From NCBI RefSeq assembly GCF_900660755.1, contig NZ_LR215050.1:806001-870000 (forward strand): a stretch of DNA of 64,000 nucleotides, in the 5' to 3' direction. The notes under the pieces were generated by a model. That model searched no databases and was not told where the DNA came from. It worked only from the letters and a program-made list of their open reading frames with translations. This document shows, in pieces, positions 1 through 11,141 of the stretch. Position numbers and translations under genes: made by a program. Numbering within the stretch: position 1 is the first letter of the stretch; each line of letters begins with the position of its first letter. The stretch is from Acholeplasma hippikon (GTDB lineage Bacteria > Bacillota_I > Bacilli_A > Acholeplasmatales > Acholeplasmataceae).

Positions 1-916
1 ATTCACTAATGATATAAAACTCAACACCACCAAATCTAGCAACAAAGTCAGTTTGAGGGATACTTGTACGTAATAAATATGCCGTCATTTTTAATGCTTC
101 ATCACCAATATGATGGCCCATTGTATCGTTAATCATTTTAAAGTCGTCTAAATCGACTAAAATGACCGAAAATCCTTCTTTTGTTTTCCTTGCTAACTTA
201 AATGTCTTCAATGTAATAATCTAATTGACGTCGATTAAAGAGCCCTGTTAAATAATCATGGTTAATCTTCTTATTTTGTAGATTAACATATTTTACAATG
301 AGAGCTAATACAACTGAATGTACTGCAACTGGATAACCTTCAAAGAATATTTGTAAAACTAATCCAATCATTGGGATTAAGATGACAATAAGATACGTTT
401 TAATATGTTCATAAGTTAAACGTTTTTTGTACATTAAAATTAAGATCACAGTACCCAATAAAATCGTGAGGTTCAGTAATTCAGTTAACATGAAAACTGT
501 TCCTCTTTCATATGCATAGTTTGAAGATAATGTATATAAAAATCCAAATTTTAGATTAATTAACACGATAATTAAGTTAAGTCCTACAACGAGTAGTCCA
601 TAGTACCAAACATTTTTAAGCAATTTGTCACTTGAGTGAATTTGGTAATGAATATACATAAACCATAAAGTTGCAAGTAACGGATTTAATGCATAAAGTA
701 AGAAATTGCCCACTTGAGAAAAGATAAGCCCAAAATCAGTGTTTAATGTGTGCATTCTAGAAAAAATTTCAACTAAAACAAGTAATTGTGTTCCAAACAC
801 AAGGAAAAAAAGATTTTCTCCCCTGTATTTTTTAATTTATTTGCTCGCATTGAATATTTAATAGCAGCTAAAATTGTTAATGAGAATAAACCCATAATGA
901 AAGACGTGACGATCAT
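1..916 (-). pseudogene. Membrane GGDEF-domain protein (putative diguanylate cyclase), frameshifted and cut by the window edge
   Basis: The longest open piece (198-800) encodes at least five hydrophobic segments followed by the start of a GGDEF domain (HDYLTGLFNRRQLDYYIE). The coding sense continues in other frames on both sides. Upstream, an ATG at 916 preceded by AAGAGGT starts a membrane segment (MIVTSFIMGLFSL) that only joins the main frame if one base is changed near the A7 run at 805-811. Downstream, one base must be removed near 195-205 to read on into KTFKLARK...VILVDLDDFKMIND...ARFGGVEF. The signature is GGVEF instead of GGDEF, so a metal/catalytic acid position is altered. Diguanylate cyclases make c-di-GMP; this copy is probably inactive. 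The family call is firm; whether the two shifts are real decay or sequencing error cannot be told here. Confidence 0.75.
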
Positions 917-2294: not shown

Positions 2295-3041
2295 TTATAC
2301 ATGAATTACACGTTCTAAGAATTCTTTTGTACGTGGATTTTTTGCGTTGTTAAAAATTTCTTCTGGCGTATTTCTTTCAATAATCTTACCCTTATCCATC
2401 ACAATTAAGTCATCTGCTACTCTTCTTGCAAAGTTCATTTCATGGGTAACAATAATCATGTTCATACCTTGGTTAGCTAAATCTTGCATTACATTTAATA
2501 CTTCTAAAATCATTTCTGGATCTAAAGCTGATGTTGGTTCATCAAATAAAATCACATCTGGATTCATACATAATGATCTTGCGATTGCAATTCTTTGTTT
2601 TTGTCCACCTGATAACTGATTTGGATAAACATCCTTCTTATCAATTAACCCAACCTTTGTTAAGTAGTTAATTGAAATTTCAGTTGCTTCTGCTTCACTT
2701 CGCTTTAAGACATTCATTTGTGCTAAATTTAAGTTCTTTAAGACAGTTAAATGAGGAAATAAATGGAAGTTTTGGAAAACCATACCAACTTTTTGACGGT
2801 ATAAATTTAATTTAAAACCTTTTTCAAAAATATTCGTTGTATCTTTATAGAAGACTTCACCACTAGATGGCGTTTCCATTGCATTAAGCATTCTTAAAAT
2901 TGTTGATTTACCTGAACCAGAAGGTCCAATAATCACAGTTACCCCTTGATTAATTTCTACTGAAACATCATCTAAGGCAACTACACCATTTTTAAATTTC
3001 TTTGTTAAGTTATTAACAGTAAATAATTTATCTTTCATCAT
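2295..3041 (-). CDS. Polar amino-acid ABC transporter, ATP-binding protein (GlnQ/HisP type)
   Basis: ATPase subunit of 248 residues that powers amino-acid uptake at the cytoplasmic face. Walker A is GPSGSGKST (about residues 39-47), the Q-loop region is [13 protein letters not shown], the ABC signature is LSGGQKQR (about 143-150) and Walker B is [13 protein letters not shown], followed by the switch histidine in [10 protein letters not shown]. Length and motif spacing fit the PAAT family. It overlaps the permease gene upstream by 14 nt and is the last gene of the three-gene T-box-controlled operon, so its synthesis should follow availability of a charged tRNA. Which amino acid it moves is not decided by the sequence. 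Confidence 0.93.
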
Positions 3042-3705
3042 GCTTCCTCATTTTCTTTTCAACTAAGCCCATTAATCTTGCTGTGGTGAATGTTAATGTG
3101 AAGTAAAGGACTGCTGTAACAATATAAACTTCCATCATACGGTAAGTTCCATTTTTAACAATTTGTGCTGCATACATTAATTCTGCAATACCTAAGTACA
3201 TAAAAATTGATGTTTCTTTAATTAATGCCGCAAACTCATTACCTAAACTTGGTAAGATGTTTTTTAATGCTTGTGGCATCACAACATAACGCATCGTTTG
3301 ATGTTTTGTTAAACCTAAACTTAATGATGCTTCTGTTTGACCTTTATCAACAGATTGGATACCACCACGGATTAATTCAGCAATATAAGCACTCGCATTA
3401 ATCGTTAAGGCAAGCATACCAGGTATGAAGCTTGAAAGGTCAACCCCTAGGACAATCGTAATTGGTAATTTAACTAGGCTGTAAATAATTAAAACTTGTA
3501 CTAAAAGTGGGGTTCCTCTAATGATTTCAACATAAGCCTGTCCGATAAAGCTAATTGGTTTAATCTTGCTTAAACGCATAAATGCTGGGATAATCCCAAG
3601 AATTGAACCAATAAATACTGCGATTAACGCAAGTATCAATGTCATTAAAAGTCCATTTAATAATGTATATAGAAAATTTGTATCTAATAAAAAATCAAAG
3701 TTCAT
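3028..3705 (-). CDS. Polar amino-acid ABC transporter, permease (HisM/GlnP type)
   Basis: Inner-membrane subunit of 225 residues with about five hydrophobic segments. The EAA-type coupling loop that contacts the ATPase is visible as [34 protein letters not shown] (about residues 142-175), characteristic of the HAAT/PAAT permeases. A single permease gene is present, so the channel is presumably a homodimer. It lies 2 nt after the binding-protein gene and overlaps the ATPase gene, forming one unit. Confidence 0.92.
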
Positions 3706-3707
3706 AA

Positions 3708-4514
3708 TTAGCTATTTAAGATGATTGCATCGTTTACATATTGGTCCATCTTACCAGTTTCAATCAGTGATGCAATCACTTCGTTAATCTTTGAAACTAG
3801 TTCTTGATTTCCTTTTCTAACGGCTACCGCTGCTCCATCTTCTGAATTTCCGATTGTGAAGTTAGCGATCGCGTAGTCAGGTTGATTTGCAATGAACCCT
3901 TTCGCAACTGCAGATTCTAAGACTACTGCATTTACTTTACCTTGTTGTAAGTTGAATAATAAATCATTAACTGATTGTAAGAATAAGTTTTGTGCTGAAC
4001 CAAAGTTTTCAGTTGTTAGGTCTTGTTGGATAGAACCTAATTGTGCACCAACTTTAACTGTTGCAACATTTAATGATTCGATTGATGTATATTTATCTAA
4101 ATCAGTTTTCTTAACAACTACTGATTGTTGTGATTGGAAGTAGATATTTGAGAAATCAACTTGTTCAGCACGCTTAGCTGTTGGAGTTACTGCTGAGATA
4201 ACGAAGTCAACTTTTCCTGCTTCTAAATCATCTAAAAGGAAGTCAAATCCTCTGTTTAAAACTCTTAAGTTCTTTCCTAATGCTTTAGCAATTTCTTTTG
4301 CTAATTCAATATCGAAACCAACTAATTGAGTTTTATTGTTTTCATCAATGATTAACCATTCATATGGTGCATAATCAGCTGATGTACCTAATACCATAAA
4401 CTCTGTATATGATTCATCTAAGATGAAGTCAAATACTGTCGAACTTTCTGTTTGGCAACCTACTAAAGTCACTAAACCTAATACTACAAATAAACTTAAT
4501 AATAATTTTTTCAT
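3708..4514 (-). CDS. Amino-acid ABC transporter substrate-binding lipoprotein
   Basis: Protein of 268 residues with a lipoprotein signal peptide (MKKLLLSLFVVLGLVTLVGC, lipobox LVGC with Cys20), so it is tethered outside the membrane. The body is an SBP_bac_3 fold: MVLGTSADYAPYEW near the start, VGFDIELAKEIAKALGK, and VDFVISAVTPTAKRAEQVDFSNIYF, the usual order of ligand-contacting strands in cystine/glutamine/arginine-type binding proteins. A good ribosome site (AGGAGAGACAAAATG) is present. It is the first gene after the double T-box leader, hence its expression should rise when the cognate tRNA is uncharged. Specificity is unresolved. Confidence 0.92.
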   Translation of the reverse strand: MKKLLLSLFVVLGLVTLVGCQTESSTVFDFILDESYTEFMVLGTSADYAPYEWLIIDENNKTQLVGFDIELAKEIAKALGKNLRVLNRGFDFLLDDLEAGKVDFVISAVTPTAKRAEQVDFSNIYFQSQQSVVVKKTDLDKYTSIESLNVATVKVGAQLGSIQQDLTTENFGSAQNLFLQSVNDLLFNLQQGKVNAVVLESAVAKGFIANQPDYAIANFTIGNSEDGAAVAVRKGNQELVSKINEVIASLIETGKMDQYVNDAIILNS

Positions 4515-4561: not shown

Positions 4562-4715
4562 AAAAAAATCCCTGGCATTTAATCATGCCAAGGACGAAAA
4601 TACTTTTCCGCGGTACCACCTTGATTCTAACCTTTTAAAAAAGTTAGCTCTTAAAACCGTTAACGCCAGTTATACGTTTAAACCTGATAGATGAGTTGGT
4701 GTGTGGTATTTAAAG
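4562..4715 (-). promoter_or_regulatory. T-box riboswitch module 2 (antiterminator/terminator unit without Stem I)
   Basis: Read on the minus strand this contains the stem IIA/B-like stretch ACTGGCGTTAACGG, the T-box sequence AAGGTGGTACCGCGG, and a terminator made of TCCTTGGCAT / ATGCCAGGGA (4585-4594 and 4569-4578) followed by T7. Only about 35 nt separate the previous terminator from the pseudoknot region, and I see neither the AGAGAG nor the GGTTGGTG Stem I signatures there, so this copy lacks its own codon reader. The UGGU bulge predicts a tRNA with discriminator A. Confidence 0.85.
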
Positions 4716-4954
4716 AAAAAGTCCCTAGACAAAATAAATTTGTCTAAGGACGAAAATAAACTTCCGTGGTACCACCTTAGTTCTAGGGAACCTAGCACTT
4801 TAAATCGTTAACGCCGACTTACGTTTAAACCTCATCATATTTCGATTTAAAAGCTCCAAAACACGTTCATAAACTTCCTTGACTGATTTGCACCAACCAT
4901 CAGCTCTCTTTACAATTATCATTTATTACTACTTTTTTTCATCGCTTGGGTAAT
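4716..4954 (-). promoter_or_regulatory. T-box riboswitch module 1 (with Stem I)
   Basis: A full leader on the minus strand: AGAGAG then GATGGTTGGTGCAA (Stem I distal loop), GAACGTGTTTTGGAGC (end of the specifier region), GTCGGCGTTAACG (stem IIA/B), the T-box AAGGTGGTACCACGG (canonical G changed to A) and a terminator GTCCTTAGACA / TGTCTAGGGAC (4741-4751, 4721-4731) with T5. The specifier codon probably lies at or just after GAAC (GUG Val is the simplest reading; CGU Arg or an overlapping AUG Met are alternatives). It controls the amino-acid ABC operon at 4514-2295. Confidence 0.88.
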
Positions 4955-4982
4955 ATTATATAACTTCTCAATCTTTTTTCAA
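4955..4982 (-). promoter_or_regulatory. Promoter of the T-box/amino-acid ABC operon
   Basis: On the minus strand TTGAAA (4982-4977), a 16-nt spacer and a perfect TATAAT (4960-4955) stand immediately before the T-box leader. Confidence 0.8.
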
Positions 4983-5073: not shown

Positions 5074-6216
5074 TTATTTGCTTGTCTTCACGTCATTAAG
5101 CATGTTTAATAAACGGCTTAATACTTCGTTACTAAAGTTAGCATATGGCACACCATGGAAATCTCCAGTATCTGGATAATAATCTTGTTGTGCTCTTGCC
5201 CATGAAGTTAACCACTCATCATCGCCTTCATAATAAGCAATCGCATCATATGTTTGTTGTAGAGGTGTTGCATAACCAACAACTCCAGCATTTTCATATG
5301 CGTTATCTGGATTTAAGAAGAAATTGATGAATTCATGTGCTAAATCAACATGGCGTGCTTTTGTTGGAATAACAAACGCATCCATAAATGCCATTGTGTT
5401 TTCTGGAATATAGATGTCATATAATTTTTCATCGTAATTCATACCTTCATCTAAATCAACGTATAAAACATCTAAGAAGTCTCCAGTCCATACATACGCT
5501 AAATCTAAGTTGTTTGATTGAATATCTTTCTTTAATTGGTCATCTGCAAATACTGTGAATTTAGCGGCTTTTAATGTTTGACGTGCTAATTCAAGGTTTG
5601 TTAATGTTTGACCTTCTGAAACAGTTTCAGGTAATGATAATGGTGAAATATGATGATATAACATTGCAGTTGAATAAGCATATTGCGCAACATCATACAT
5701 ACCTACACGATTTGTAGGACGTTTTGATGGTTCAAAGTATGCTGCCCAACCATGTTCATGTAAAGCTTCTTCTAAACCAGCTACACGCTTGTTATACATT
5801 AATCCAAATGATCCCCAGAAGTAAGGAACAAAATAATCTCTATCTTCTACTTCCATGGTATTGATAATACCTTGAAGGCCTTGCATATATGGATTATTTT
5901 CTGGATCATAGTTTGATAATTTGTCAAATTGAATCGGTTGAATTAACTTTTCATCGACCATTTTTGCAATCATGTAATCTGAAGGTAAAACTAAATCATA
6001 TGCAGTTGTACCTGATTTAACCTTTGAGTAGAATAATTCGTTACTATCTGCAATTGAAATTGAAACTTCAACGTTAAATTCTTCTTCAAATGCTAAGACT
6101 AAGTCTTCGTTAATATATTCTCCCCAGTTTAGGATTAATAATTTTTGAGTTGTATTACAACTTGTTAAGAATAAAATTGAAAGAAAAGTAAATGCTAATG
6201 TTAAAATCTTCTTCAT
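5074..6216 (-). CDS. potD: Spermidine/putrescine ABC transporter substrate-binding lipoprotein
   Basis: Binding protein of 380 residues. The signal peptide ends in lipobox LTSC (Cys20). The mature protein opens with LLILNWGEYINEDLVLAFEEEF, the classical PotD/PotF start that carries polyamine-contacting aromatic and acidic residues; FVPYFWGSFGLMYNKR and AYVWTGDF are also family typical. It captures polyamines outside the membrane and delivers them to PotBC. It overlaps potC by 4 nt and is the last gene of the operon. No clear terminator follows before the T-box promoter region. Confidence 0.93.
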   Translation of the reverse strand: MKKILTLAFTFLSILFLTSCNTTQKLLILNWGEYINEDLVLAFEEEFNVEVSISIADSNELFYSKVKSGTTAYDLVLPSDYMIAKMVDEKLIQPIQFDKLSNYDPENNPYMQGLQGIINTMEVEDRDYFVPYFWGSFGLMYNKRVAGLEEALHEHGWAAYFEPSKRPTNRVGMYDVAQYAYSTAMLYHHISPLSLPETVSEGQTLTNLELARQTLKAAKFTVFADDQLKKDIQSNNLDLAYVWTGDFLDVLYVDLDEGMNYDEKLYDIYIPENTMAFMDAFVIPTKARHVDLAHEFINFFLNPDNAYENAGVVGYATPLQQTYDAIAYYEGDDEWLTSWARAQQDYYPDTGDFHGVPYANFSNEVLSRLLNMLNDVKTSK

Positions 6217-9914: not shown

Positions 9915-11141
9915 CTATGCTGGTAAGTTTTGTAAATAAGCTAATACCTTATCTAAAGTCTCCATTGCGTAATTTCTACCTGTTTCTTCTTCAACGGTAC
10001 CTAAATTAAATTGGTACTCATGCGCAAGTTCGGCATCATAGAAAACAGTTTCTACTGATACACCTAAGTTTTCTAATTTAGATGCTAATCTTTTACCATG
10101 TTCTTCAAATGATATATTTTTAGCATCCGTAATAAACGTAGGTGGGAAATCACTTGTTACATAATTTGTTAAGGTTAAAATATCCCATTTAGGATCTTGT
10201 GCCCAATTTTTTTCACCTAAGAAGGCGTATCCTATTTTTTGAGCAAAGAATCCTACAATCTTAGTTAACGCACTTCCTCCAGCACTTCTATTTAATCTTG
10301 TCACTGGATCACCTAATAAATTTAAAAGTAAACTAAAGTCATATGGACCACAATAGAGGATTGCACCTTTGATTTGGTCTTTTGTTAAAACTGGAGAAAC
10401 CTTAGAAAGTTCTGAATATGCTGGATTTGTATTGTTAATAACAAACTGTGCCGCTAAGAATGCGCCAGCAGAATCCCCTCCAACAATCATATTGTCTAAA
10501 TCAAGATACGGGTACTTAGCAATTTCATTTTTAACATGTGTATATGCTTCACCAATTTGAATTAATGGTGTTGGATATTGATACTCATAACCTAAGCCAT
10601 AATTGATACTAATGACTGCATATCCTTCATTTGCTAAGACATACATATAACTTGCTACATCATCTTTATCTCCGGCAACAAATGCGCCAGCAGAATCCCC
10701 TCCAACAATCATATTGTCTAAATCAAGATACGGGTACTTAGCAATTTCATTTTTAACATGTGTATATGCTTCACCAATTTGAATTAATGGTGTTGAATAT
10801 TGATACTCATAACCTAAGCCATAATTGATACTAATGACTGCATATCCTTCATTTGCTAAGACATACATATAACTTGCTACATCATCTTTATCTCCGGCAA
10901 CAAATGCGCCGCCATGAATCCATAAAATGATTGGTACATTTACCTCATCCATTAAATCAGTCTTAATAAAGATATCTAATTCATTCATGCCGTTACTTGA
11001 AACATAGGTAATATCGCTTAGTAAAGTCACATTCTCTTTAATCTCTAAAATATTTTCATGTTCAGTATATGTTGTTAAACTAAATAATTTTCTAACTAAC
11101 CAAACACTTGGTTTAGGTGAAACAAATAAGTAAGTTGTCAT
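9915..11141 (-). CDS. Alpha/beta hydrolase (esterase/lipase, HSL type) with an internal 74-residue tandem duplication
   Basis: The oxyanion-hole motif is IHGGAF (residues about 75-80). The nucleophile motif GGDSAG occurs twice because residues about 78-151 are repeated almost exactly as 152-225 (one Ser/Pro difference). The remaining triad is plausible in FITDAKN and ELAHEYQF. Without the repeat the protein would be about 334 residues, normal for the family; with it, 408. The annotated ATG at 11141 has no good ribosome site. The frame stays open upstream to a TAA that overlaps AAGGGGAA, and encodes a hydrophobic segment (GLRIFLFILGTLVILLGA), so the real start may be a non-standard ATA at 11204. 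Function after duplication is uncertain. Confidence 0.82.
   Translation of the reverse strand: MTTYLFVSPKPSVWLVRKLFSLTTYTEHENILEIKENVTLLSDITYVSSNGMNELDIFIKTDLMDEVNVPIILWIHGGAFVAGDKDDVASYMYVLANEGYAVISINYGLGYEYQYSTPLIQIGEAYTHVKNEIAKYPYLDLDNMIVGGDSAGAFVAGDKDDVASYMYVLANEGYAVISINYGLGYEYQYPTPLIQIGEAYTHVKNEIAKYPYLDLDNMIVGGDSAGAFLAAQFVINNTNPAYSELSKVSPVLTKDQIKGAILYCGPYDFSLLLNLLGDPVTRLNRSAGGSALTKIVGFFAQKIGYAFLGEKNWAQDPKWDILTLTNYVTSDFPPTFITDAKNISFEEHGKRLASKLENLGVSVETVFYDAELAHEYQFNLGTVEEETGRNYAMETLDKVLAYLQNLPA
10459..10902. repeat. 222-bp in-frame tandem duplication
   Basis: Units 10459-10680 and 10681-10902 are identical except for a single base I could find (near 10571 against 10793). The 8-mer AATGCGCC stands at 10459, 10681 and 10903, so the duplication is bounded by short direct repeats, as expected from slippage or unequal recombination. 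Confidence 0.95.

Follow-up and report, generated by a model that had tools for sequence, protein, structure and literature searches.

The window analysed here is a stretch of 64,000 nucleotides from the Acholeplasma hippikon contig NZ_LR215050.1, and all coordinates below are positions within it. On its minus strand, a single T-box Stem I is followed by two antiterminator/terminator modules and then by an amino-acid importer operon. This leader sits between a spermidine/putrescine-type solute-binding gene, which ends at 5074, and an SBP_bac_3-permease-ATPase operon, which starts at 4514. From family profile matches, the operon (also minus strand) encodes an extracellular solute-binding protein (SBP) of the SBP_bac_3 family (3708-4514, Lys/Arg/Orn-like), an amino-acid ABC permease (3028-3705, BPD_transp_1 and HEQRo_perm_3TM) and a GlnQ-like amino-acid ABC ATPase (2295-3041). 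The nearest family of the SBP is Lys/Arg/Orn at 106.7 bits, under the family cut-off of 256.35. Because the importer proteins score under the curated cut-offs of named transporters, the substrate is taken from the leader: given the tRNA-Arg specifier described below, it is most likely arginine.

Everything in the leader lies on the minus strand. It begins with a predicted promoter (4955-4982), made up of a -35 TTGAAA (4982-4977), a 16-nt spacer and a -10 TATAAT (4960-4955). This agrees with the consensus at 11 of 12 positions and lies immediately 5' of Stem I. The sole Stem I (4854-4951), placed by covariance model and sequence, carries AGAGAG (4909-4904), GGTTGGTG (4898-4891), GAAC (4868-4865) and GGAG (4857-4854). 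The specifier CGU (4863-4865) is followed by the purine G4862. Right after Stem I comes 5A, UUUAAAUC (4844-4851), the single IIA 5' strand, which is complementary to both modules.

Module 1 (4743-4831) consists of the IIA/B core, Stem III and an antiterminator. It opens with A1, GGUUUAAA (4824-4831), which is its IIA 3' strand, abutted by the loop segment LP1, GAUGAG (4831-4836). T-box 1, GGTGGTACCACGG (4776-4764), lies in its antiterminator, and the terminator 1 hairpin (4721-4751) has 13 pairs and a 3' U-tract. The linker that follows contains K, CUCAUC (4690-4695), which is complementary to LP1 and covaries with it. Module 2 (4586-4684) starts with A2, again GGUUUAAA (4677-4684). This is the IIA 3' strand of module 2; it is complementary to 5A and has no conserved local 5' partner. 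A IIB hairpin with a GCGUUAA loop, Stem III and an antiterminator with T-box 2, GGTGGTACCGCGG (4620-4608), complete the module, and the terminator 2 hairpin (4568-4595) has 11 pairs and a 3' U-tract. Both modules are delimited by the covariance model and by pair covariation.

The RF00230 covariance model matches 4951-4743 with 148.3 bits, where the gathering threshold is 93. Stem I and module 1 are covered by this match and by this score form a T-box leader. Searched by itself, 4745-4480 yields 50.7 bits (E 1.5e-10, match 4741-4587), which is below the gathering cut-off. That alignment skips the Stem I positions, squeezing 89 of them into 13 nt, as befits a module without a Stem I. The leader is therefore a partially tandem T-box, with one Stem I for two antiterminator/terminator modules, and not a fully tandem one, in which each module would have its own. 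A cryptic Stem I in 4680-4716 was also considered and rejected: the search of 4745-4480 found none, and this region is a linker too short to hold one. The terminator search gave two hairpins with U-tracts, where shuffled sequences average 0.2. Across the genome, RF00230 gives 12 matches, which are 11 T-boxes plus module 2 of this leader, the sole second module among them.

A preliminary description of this DNA, which named no strand, had proposed one Stem I serving two antiterminator/terminator modules, and RF00230 on both parts, together with the two terminators, bears this out. It had further assigned AGAGAG, GGTTGGTG and GAAC to the upstream module only, and a terminator to each T-box. These Stem I motifs are indeed found 5' of module 1, while module 2 has no specifier or elbow-binding elements, and the hairpins at 4751-4721 and 4595-4568 lie 3' of T-boxes 1 and 2. 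Its statement that module 2 repeats the pseudoknot and T-box only was right about the T-box. Stem III is repeated as well, and IIA/B is incomplete, its IIA 5' strand being absent.

The codon after GAA in the leader is CGU, then G. Relatives have, in the same frame, CGC-A (G001, L018/L163) and CGA-G (G300, L127); reading one position further on would instead give GUG in the window, GCA in G001 and GAG in G300. The genome has a tRNA-Arg(ACG), with discriminator G and 3' end GCCA, and the only tRNA-Val seen among the 30 of 36 tRNA loci examined reads UAC. Because CGC and CGA fix the frame, tRNA-Arg(ACG) is present and the one tRNA-Val seen reads UAC, the specifier is Arg, and on this sequence evidence the leader is read as sensing tRNA-Arg. 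Val, Arg and Met had been put forward as candidate tRNAs; Arg stands, and Val and Met are ruled out by the codons in relatives and the tRNA set (30 of 36 loci). The T-box UGGU pairs with the GCCA end of tRNA-Arg, with a U.G wobble at the discriminator. In G149, G150 and G152, T-box 2 is GGTGGCACC, with C at the variable position. Such a T-box would pair fully with a G discriminator (GCCA) like that of the tRNA-Arg in the window's genome, which serves as the reference here in place of the tRNAs of those three genomes.

T-box 1 was correctly noted to have A for the canonical G. The A in TGGTACCACGG has as its partner the U of CGUCC, at the base of the antiterminator helix A2 (a helix, to be distinguished from the strand A2), so that A-U replaces G.U. 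Among 16 two-module leaders, the pair at that base is GU in 10 and AU in 6 for module 1, and GU in 9, AU in 6 and GC in 1 for module 2, with no mismatch in either. As a defect of T-box 1 the substitution is rejected; judging from these alignments it is harmless.

Relatives were sought in several ways: 88 genomes of the family were searched at the DNA level; a specifier pattern was run against 160 genomes of the order, where it matched in 20, of which 16 have a T-box, and against 395 genomes of the class, where it matched in 38 (8 matches were not retrieved); and genome contigs were scanned with a pattern. This led to 23 leaders 5' of an orthologous importer, with SBPs 47-57% identical to that of the window; for L125 the comparison covers 126 aligned residues only. 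Two modules are present in 16 of the 23: the window, G003, G004, G005, G148-G154, UBA12489 (L110), L125, G300 (L127), G318 and G417. Single-module leaders are found in six genomes (G001, G002, G010, G014, G015 and G388), and that of G388 has an apparent remnant of A2. Because these serve orthologous operons, module 2 is dispensable. In the remaining Arg leader, that of G394 (L193), module 2 is decayed and its broken T-box 2 reads AGATGGTACTGTGG. A full tandem of two near-identical Arg T-boxes, each with Stem I features, lies 5' of a related permease in G228 (L204, contig C17).

One- and two-module leaders are interspersed on a tree of the importers of 22 leaders (L125 was omitted as too short; two distant rows serve as outgroup); at least 5 changes are required. 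In a tree of 39 modules, placing all 16 modules 2 in one clade gives a log-likelihood 3.29 above that of the free tree (p-AU 0.541). Module 2 mostly reads AATCAA-GGTGG...CCTTGG, and module 1 AACTAA-GGTGG...CCTTAG. The simplest reading is one old duplication followed by several losses. Repeated gains of module 2 are a possible alternative history.

Module 2 bears the marks of selection. Over 26 pairs in 16 leaders, 96.2% of the 416 cells (one pair in one leader) are standard pairs, and both sides have changed in 14 of the 26 pairs. Not one of 500 shuffles matches this on any measure, and slid partners are at most 53.6% paired. For module 1 in the same 16 leaders, 99.3% of cells are paired and 12 pairs have changed on both sides, and 38 of 500 shuffles attain its number of pair types. 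These comparisons indicate that module 2 is under selection.

The IIA helix of module 1 is formed by 5A, which adjoins Stem I, with A1; 127 of 128 cells are paired. For A2, a local 5' strand in the linker was considered and is not supported: in 15 of 16 leaders, the linker:A2 duplex energy is no better than with shuffled linkers. The exception is UBA12489, with a shuffle value of 0.04. The window's own linker holds UUUAAAUA, which is 7/8 complementary to A2.

What A2 does match is 5A, with 126 of 128 cells paired over the 16 leaders. In a count of 5A:A2 alone, both sides have changed at 5 of the 8 pairs (7 cells). Out of 500 shuffles none is as high on either measure, and slid partners are at most 60.9% paired. 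Some of this complementarity is expected because A2 is a copy of A1. The two-sided changes also come from few lineages, namely UBA12489 with G300, and G417, as 11 of the 16 leaders carry exactly UUUAAAUC with G[GA]UUUAAA. De-duplicated to 7 distinct combinations, the shuffle value is 0.025.

The linker in turn matches the loop next to A1. Over the 16 leaders, the best-duplex energies of each linker with its own IIA loop sum to -140.8, and 0 of 20000 permutations are as low; with 12 representatives it is 2 of 20000. Linkers tend to form a stronger duplex with the IIA loop of their own leader than with those of other leaders. When 31 windows along the leader are scanned, the two over the IIA loop come out on top (z -4.7 and -4.5), followed by the T-box 1 region (z -3.4). 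Many linkers contain GUAC, GUAU or UACC (columns ~156-175 of the alignment), complementary to the T-box GGUACC.

A 7-nt LP1:K register can be drawn for 12 leaders, with 79 of 84 cells paired. The 9 distinct registers have 59 of 63 cells paired versus 46.4 by permutation, and 6 of 20000 permutations are as high. These K registers were chosen by eye for complementarity; the permutation test of the summed energies is free of that choice. In a formal count over 10 distinct rows, one LP1:K pair takes the forms G-C, U-A, C-G, A-U and G-U. The number of pairs with two-sided changes does not exceed shuffles (382 of 500); the number of cells with such changes and the covariation score do, with 0 of 500 as high. 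Pairing of the linker with A1 was rejected as a general rule, being strong only in G300, UBA12489 and G151, and LP1 was adopted instead. In UBA12489 and G300 the linker pairs A1 itself and not LP1; in G318 and G417 neither helix was seen.

The outer 5A:A2 helix and the inner LP1:K helix are nested and incompatible with 5A:A1. This means that one strand has two mutually exclusive helices, as comparison and folding indicate. Folding was done with ViennaRNA on leaders from which Stem I was omitted, as nested structures at equilibrium and free of tRNA; K:LP1 and 5A:A1 might form together as a pseudoknot. For transcripts that stop after terminator 1, the mean probability of 5A:A1 ranges from 0.02 to 0.90 (window 0.47). 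Once A2 is included, 13 of 16 leaders give 5A:A2 a mean probability of 0.67-0.95 (window 0.94). In these 13, state 2, in which 5A is paired with A2, is lower by 3.5-10.3 kcal/mol (window 7.4). Module 1 is a separate domain within the loop of state 2, and terminator 1 has re-formed there. An exchange from 5A:A1 to 5A:A2 is thereby predicted in 13 of the 16 leaders. The poor switchers are UBA12489 (5A:A2 probability 0.21, weak), G318 (0.03) and G417 (0.24).

In 12 of 16 leaders, shuffled linkers attain the native 5A:A2 value no more than 3 times in 60 trials; the exceptions are G149 (4), G151 (6), G318 (32) and G417 (45). Own linkers give an average 5A:A2 probability of 0.75, and foreign linkers, in 240 swaps, 0.41.

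From this, a mechanism can be proposed. In a first step, 5A would pair with A1 and so form IIA/B of module 1. With uncharged tRNA-Arg bound to Stem I, antiterminator 1 would be stabilised; otherwise terminator 1 would stop transcription. Only after read-through would K emerge and pair with LP1, beside A1, as a toehold, after which A2 would take 5A from A1. The nested [5A-LP1]:[K-A2] structure would loop out module 1, with terminator 1 re-formed harmlessly. Stem I would then adjoin module 2 as it had adjoined module 1, and the tRNA end would be freed. In a third step that end would test T-box 2, and terminator 2 would fire if the tRNA is charged or gone. K and A2 can act on the second decision only, because the first precedes their synthesis. 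The benefit would presumably be that leaks are multiplied, which lowers basal expression, with little loss when induced.

We regard such a strand-exchange hand-off of Stem I and its tRNA from module 1 to module 2, in a transcriptional T-box sensing tRNA-Arg, as somewhat favoured by the data. Comparison of the leaders establishes its parts at the level of sequence: the single Stem I, two intact modules, the Arg specifier, conservation, covariation of 5A:A1, 5A:A2 and LP1:K, and their mutual exclusion. That Stem I keeps or rebinds the tRNA, and that module 2 depends on tRNA, we infer. The poor switchers, the few lineages behind the 5A:A2 covariation, the single-module leaders and the negative outcome in Enterococcus partial tandems (below) speak against the hand-off. 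A more specific version, in which the leader is a proofreading T-box whose linker toehold moves Stem I and tRNA between platforms so that one tRNA's amino acid is checked twice, could as easily be wrong as right. The suggestion in the preliminary description that one codon reader may serve two decision points gains support from comparison and modelling, with the shared IIA 5' strand and the covarying linker as the likely structural basis; a sharpening or layering of the response is plausible.

Module 2 could instead be an ordinary back-up attenuator that lessens the leak through terminator 1 with little or no tRNA control, its A2:5A complementarity incidental. Terminator 2 is a good terminator match, and some relatives do without module 2. 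A plain terminator needs no T-box, however, and in 16 leaders T-box 2 and the antiterminator and IIB that go with it are conserved and show covariation, while A2 stays complementary to 5A across substitutions. The sole decayed module, that of G394, has moreover lost the T-box sequence. We consider a back-up attenuator rather unlikely. Alternatively, module 2 might bind a second tRNA without a Stem I and respond independently, which would make a two-tRNA AND gate. The intact T-box 2, with what would be a full match to a G discriminator in three genomes, would suit this, but isolated antiterminators bind tRNA ends weakly and module 2 lacks a specifier and elbow-binding elements, so that we consider an AND gate quite improbable.

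The linker and A2 helices could also be real and have another role: they might take apart module 1 with its bound tRNA, to keep that complex from interfering, or they might protect the 5' end of the mRNA. State 2, which encloses module 1 as a separate domain, would agree with that. It would leave unexplained why a complete IIB, Stem III and T-box follow A2 in the order and spacing of module 1, and such a role seems quite improbable. That module 2 is a relic of duplication being lost, as the interspersed single and double leaders (at least 5 changes), the decay in G394 and the remnant in G388 might suggest, is already unlikely given its pair covariation in the alignments, and we deem it very improbable since 16 of 23 leaders, from several families, keep module 2 intact with compensatory changes.

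The preferred hand-off can be set beside known systems. The window has what an RF00230 T-box leader has: Stem I, specifier, IIA/B, Stem III, antiterminator with T-box, and intrinsic terminator. It differs by adding a second module that lacks a Stem I and its own IIA 5' strand. Partially tandem T-boxes are already in print, and the relevant part of PMC7583486 gives their mode of action as unknown. With one Stem I and more than one regulatory module the window belongs among them, and where that part of the paper describes no mechanism, the shared strand and covarying linker of the window suggest one. Full tandem T-boxes are treated in PMC12452182 and PMC9413887. From the sections concerned, these likewise place two decision points in series before one operon. 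They use two or more complete sensors, whereas the window has one; the full Arg tandem of G228 is a contrasting case.

Strand exchange in riboswitches is the subject of PMC10907184, which in the portion concerned lists T-boxes as hard to classify. As described there, two mutually exclusive helices share one strand, with a toehold, and comparison and folding point to the same in the window. In those riboswitches the exchange joins an aptamer to its platform; in the window it would shift one aptamer between two platforms. A search of open PMC papers turned up neither this leader nor a strand-exchange hand-off in a T-box; two older comparative surveys of T-boxes may describe partial duplications. 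What we have not found described before is the two-module family in front of an orthologous importer (16 of 23 leaders) with its covarying shared-strand architecture. In this conserved family, the covarying pairs spell out a way for one sensor to serve two switches, with every step open to test by point mutation. If true, one aptamer would be used twice in succession, and that design principle would also be useful in building synthetic RNA devices.

Partial tandems look common. The contig pattern scan gave 90 stretches, most of which look like T-boxes by eye; L073, L088, L096, L115 and L136 do not, and L087 and L103 are doubtful. A re-scan of the pattern stretches did not recover L077 and L100. 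Close T-box pairs (L074-L162), most of which by eye have no Stem I between them, are widespread, being found in Enterococcus, Levilactobacillus, Pediococcus, Syntrophomonadaceae MAGs and others. In the Enterococcus partial tandems strand sharing was not supported: 3447 of 5000 permutations were as low in one test, and 5139 of 20000 were as high in another. A permutation test over broad regions, which does not pin down a helix, gave 3 of 5000 for Levilactobacillus, 174 of 5000 for a Clostridia group and 48 of 5000 for other loci.

Of 18 sampled candidate loci, 14 reach RF00230 at the site, and in 13 of these the match ends at the upstream T-box; in L138 it runs on to the downstream one. L157, L118, L119 and L076 do not reach the model at the site. 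At the gathering threshold, module 2 was never reported as a separate match in these 18 loci. Because this threshold misses second modules, current annotation probably undercounts them.

Two other features of the window are worth recording. At 198-800 (minus strand), a membrane protein, for which no Pfam match was found, stops where a GGDEF-like stretch, HDYLTGLFNRRQ, has barely begun, as a truncated or frameshifted protein would. At 9915-11141 (minus strand), an alpha/beta-hydrolase-like ORF of 408 aa contains a near-perfect tandem duplication of some 76 residues, in which GAFVAGDKDD...VGGDSA appears twice.
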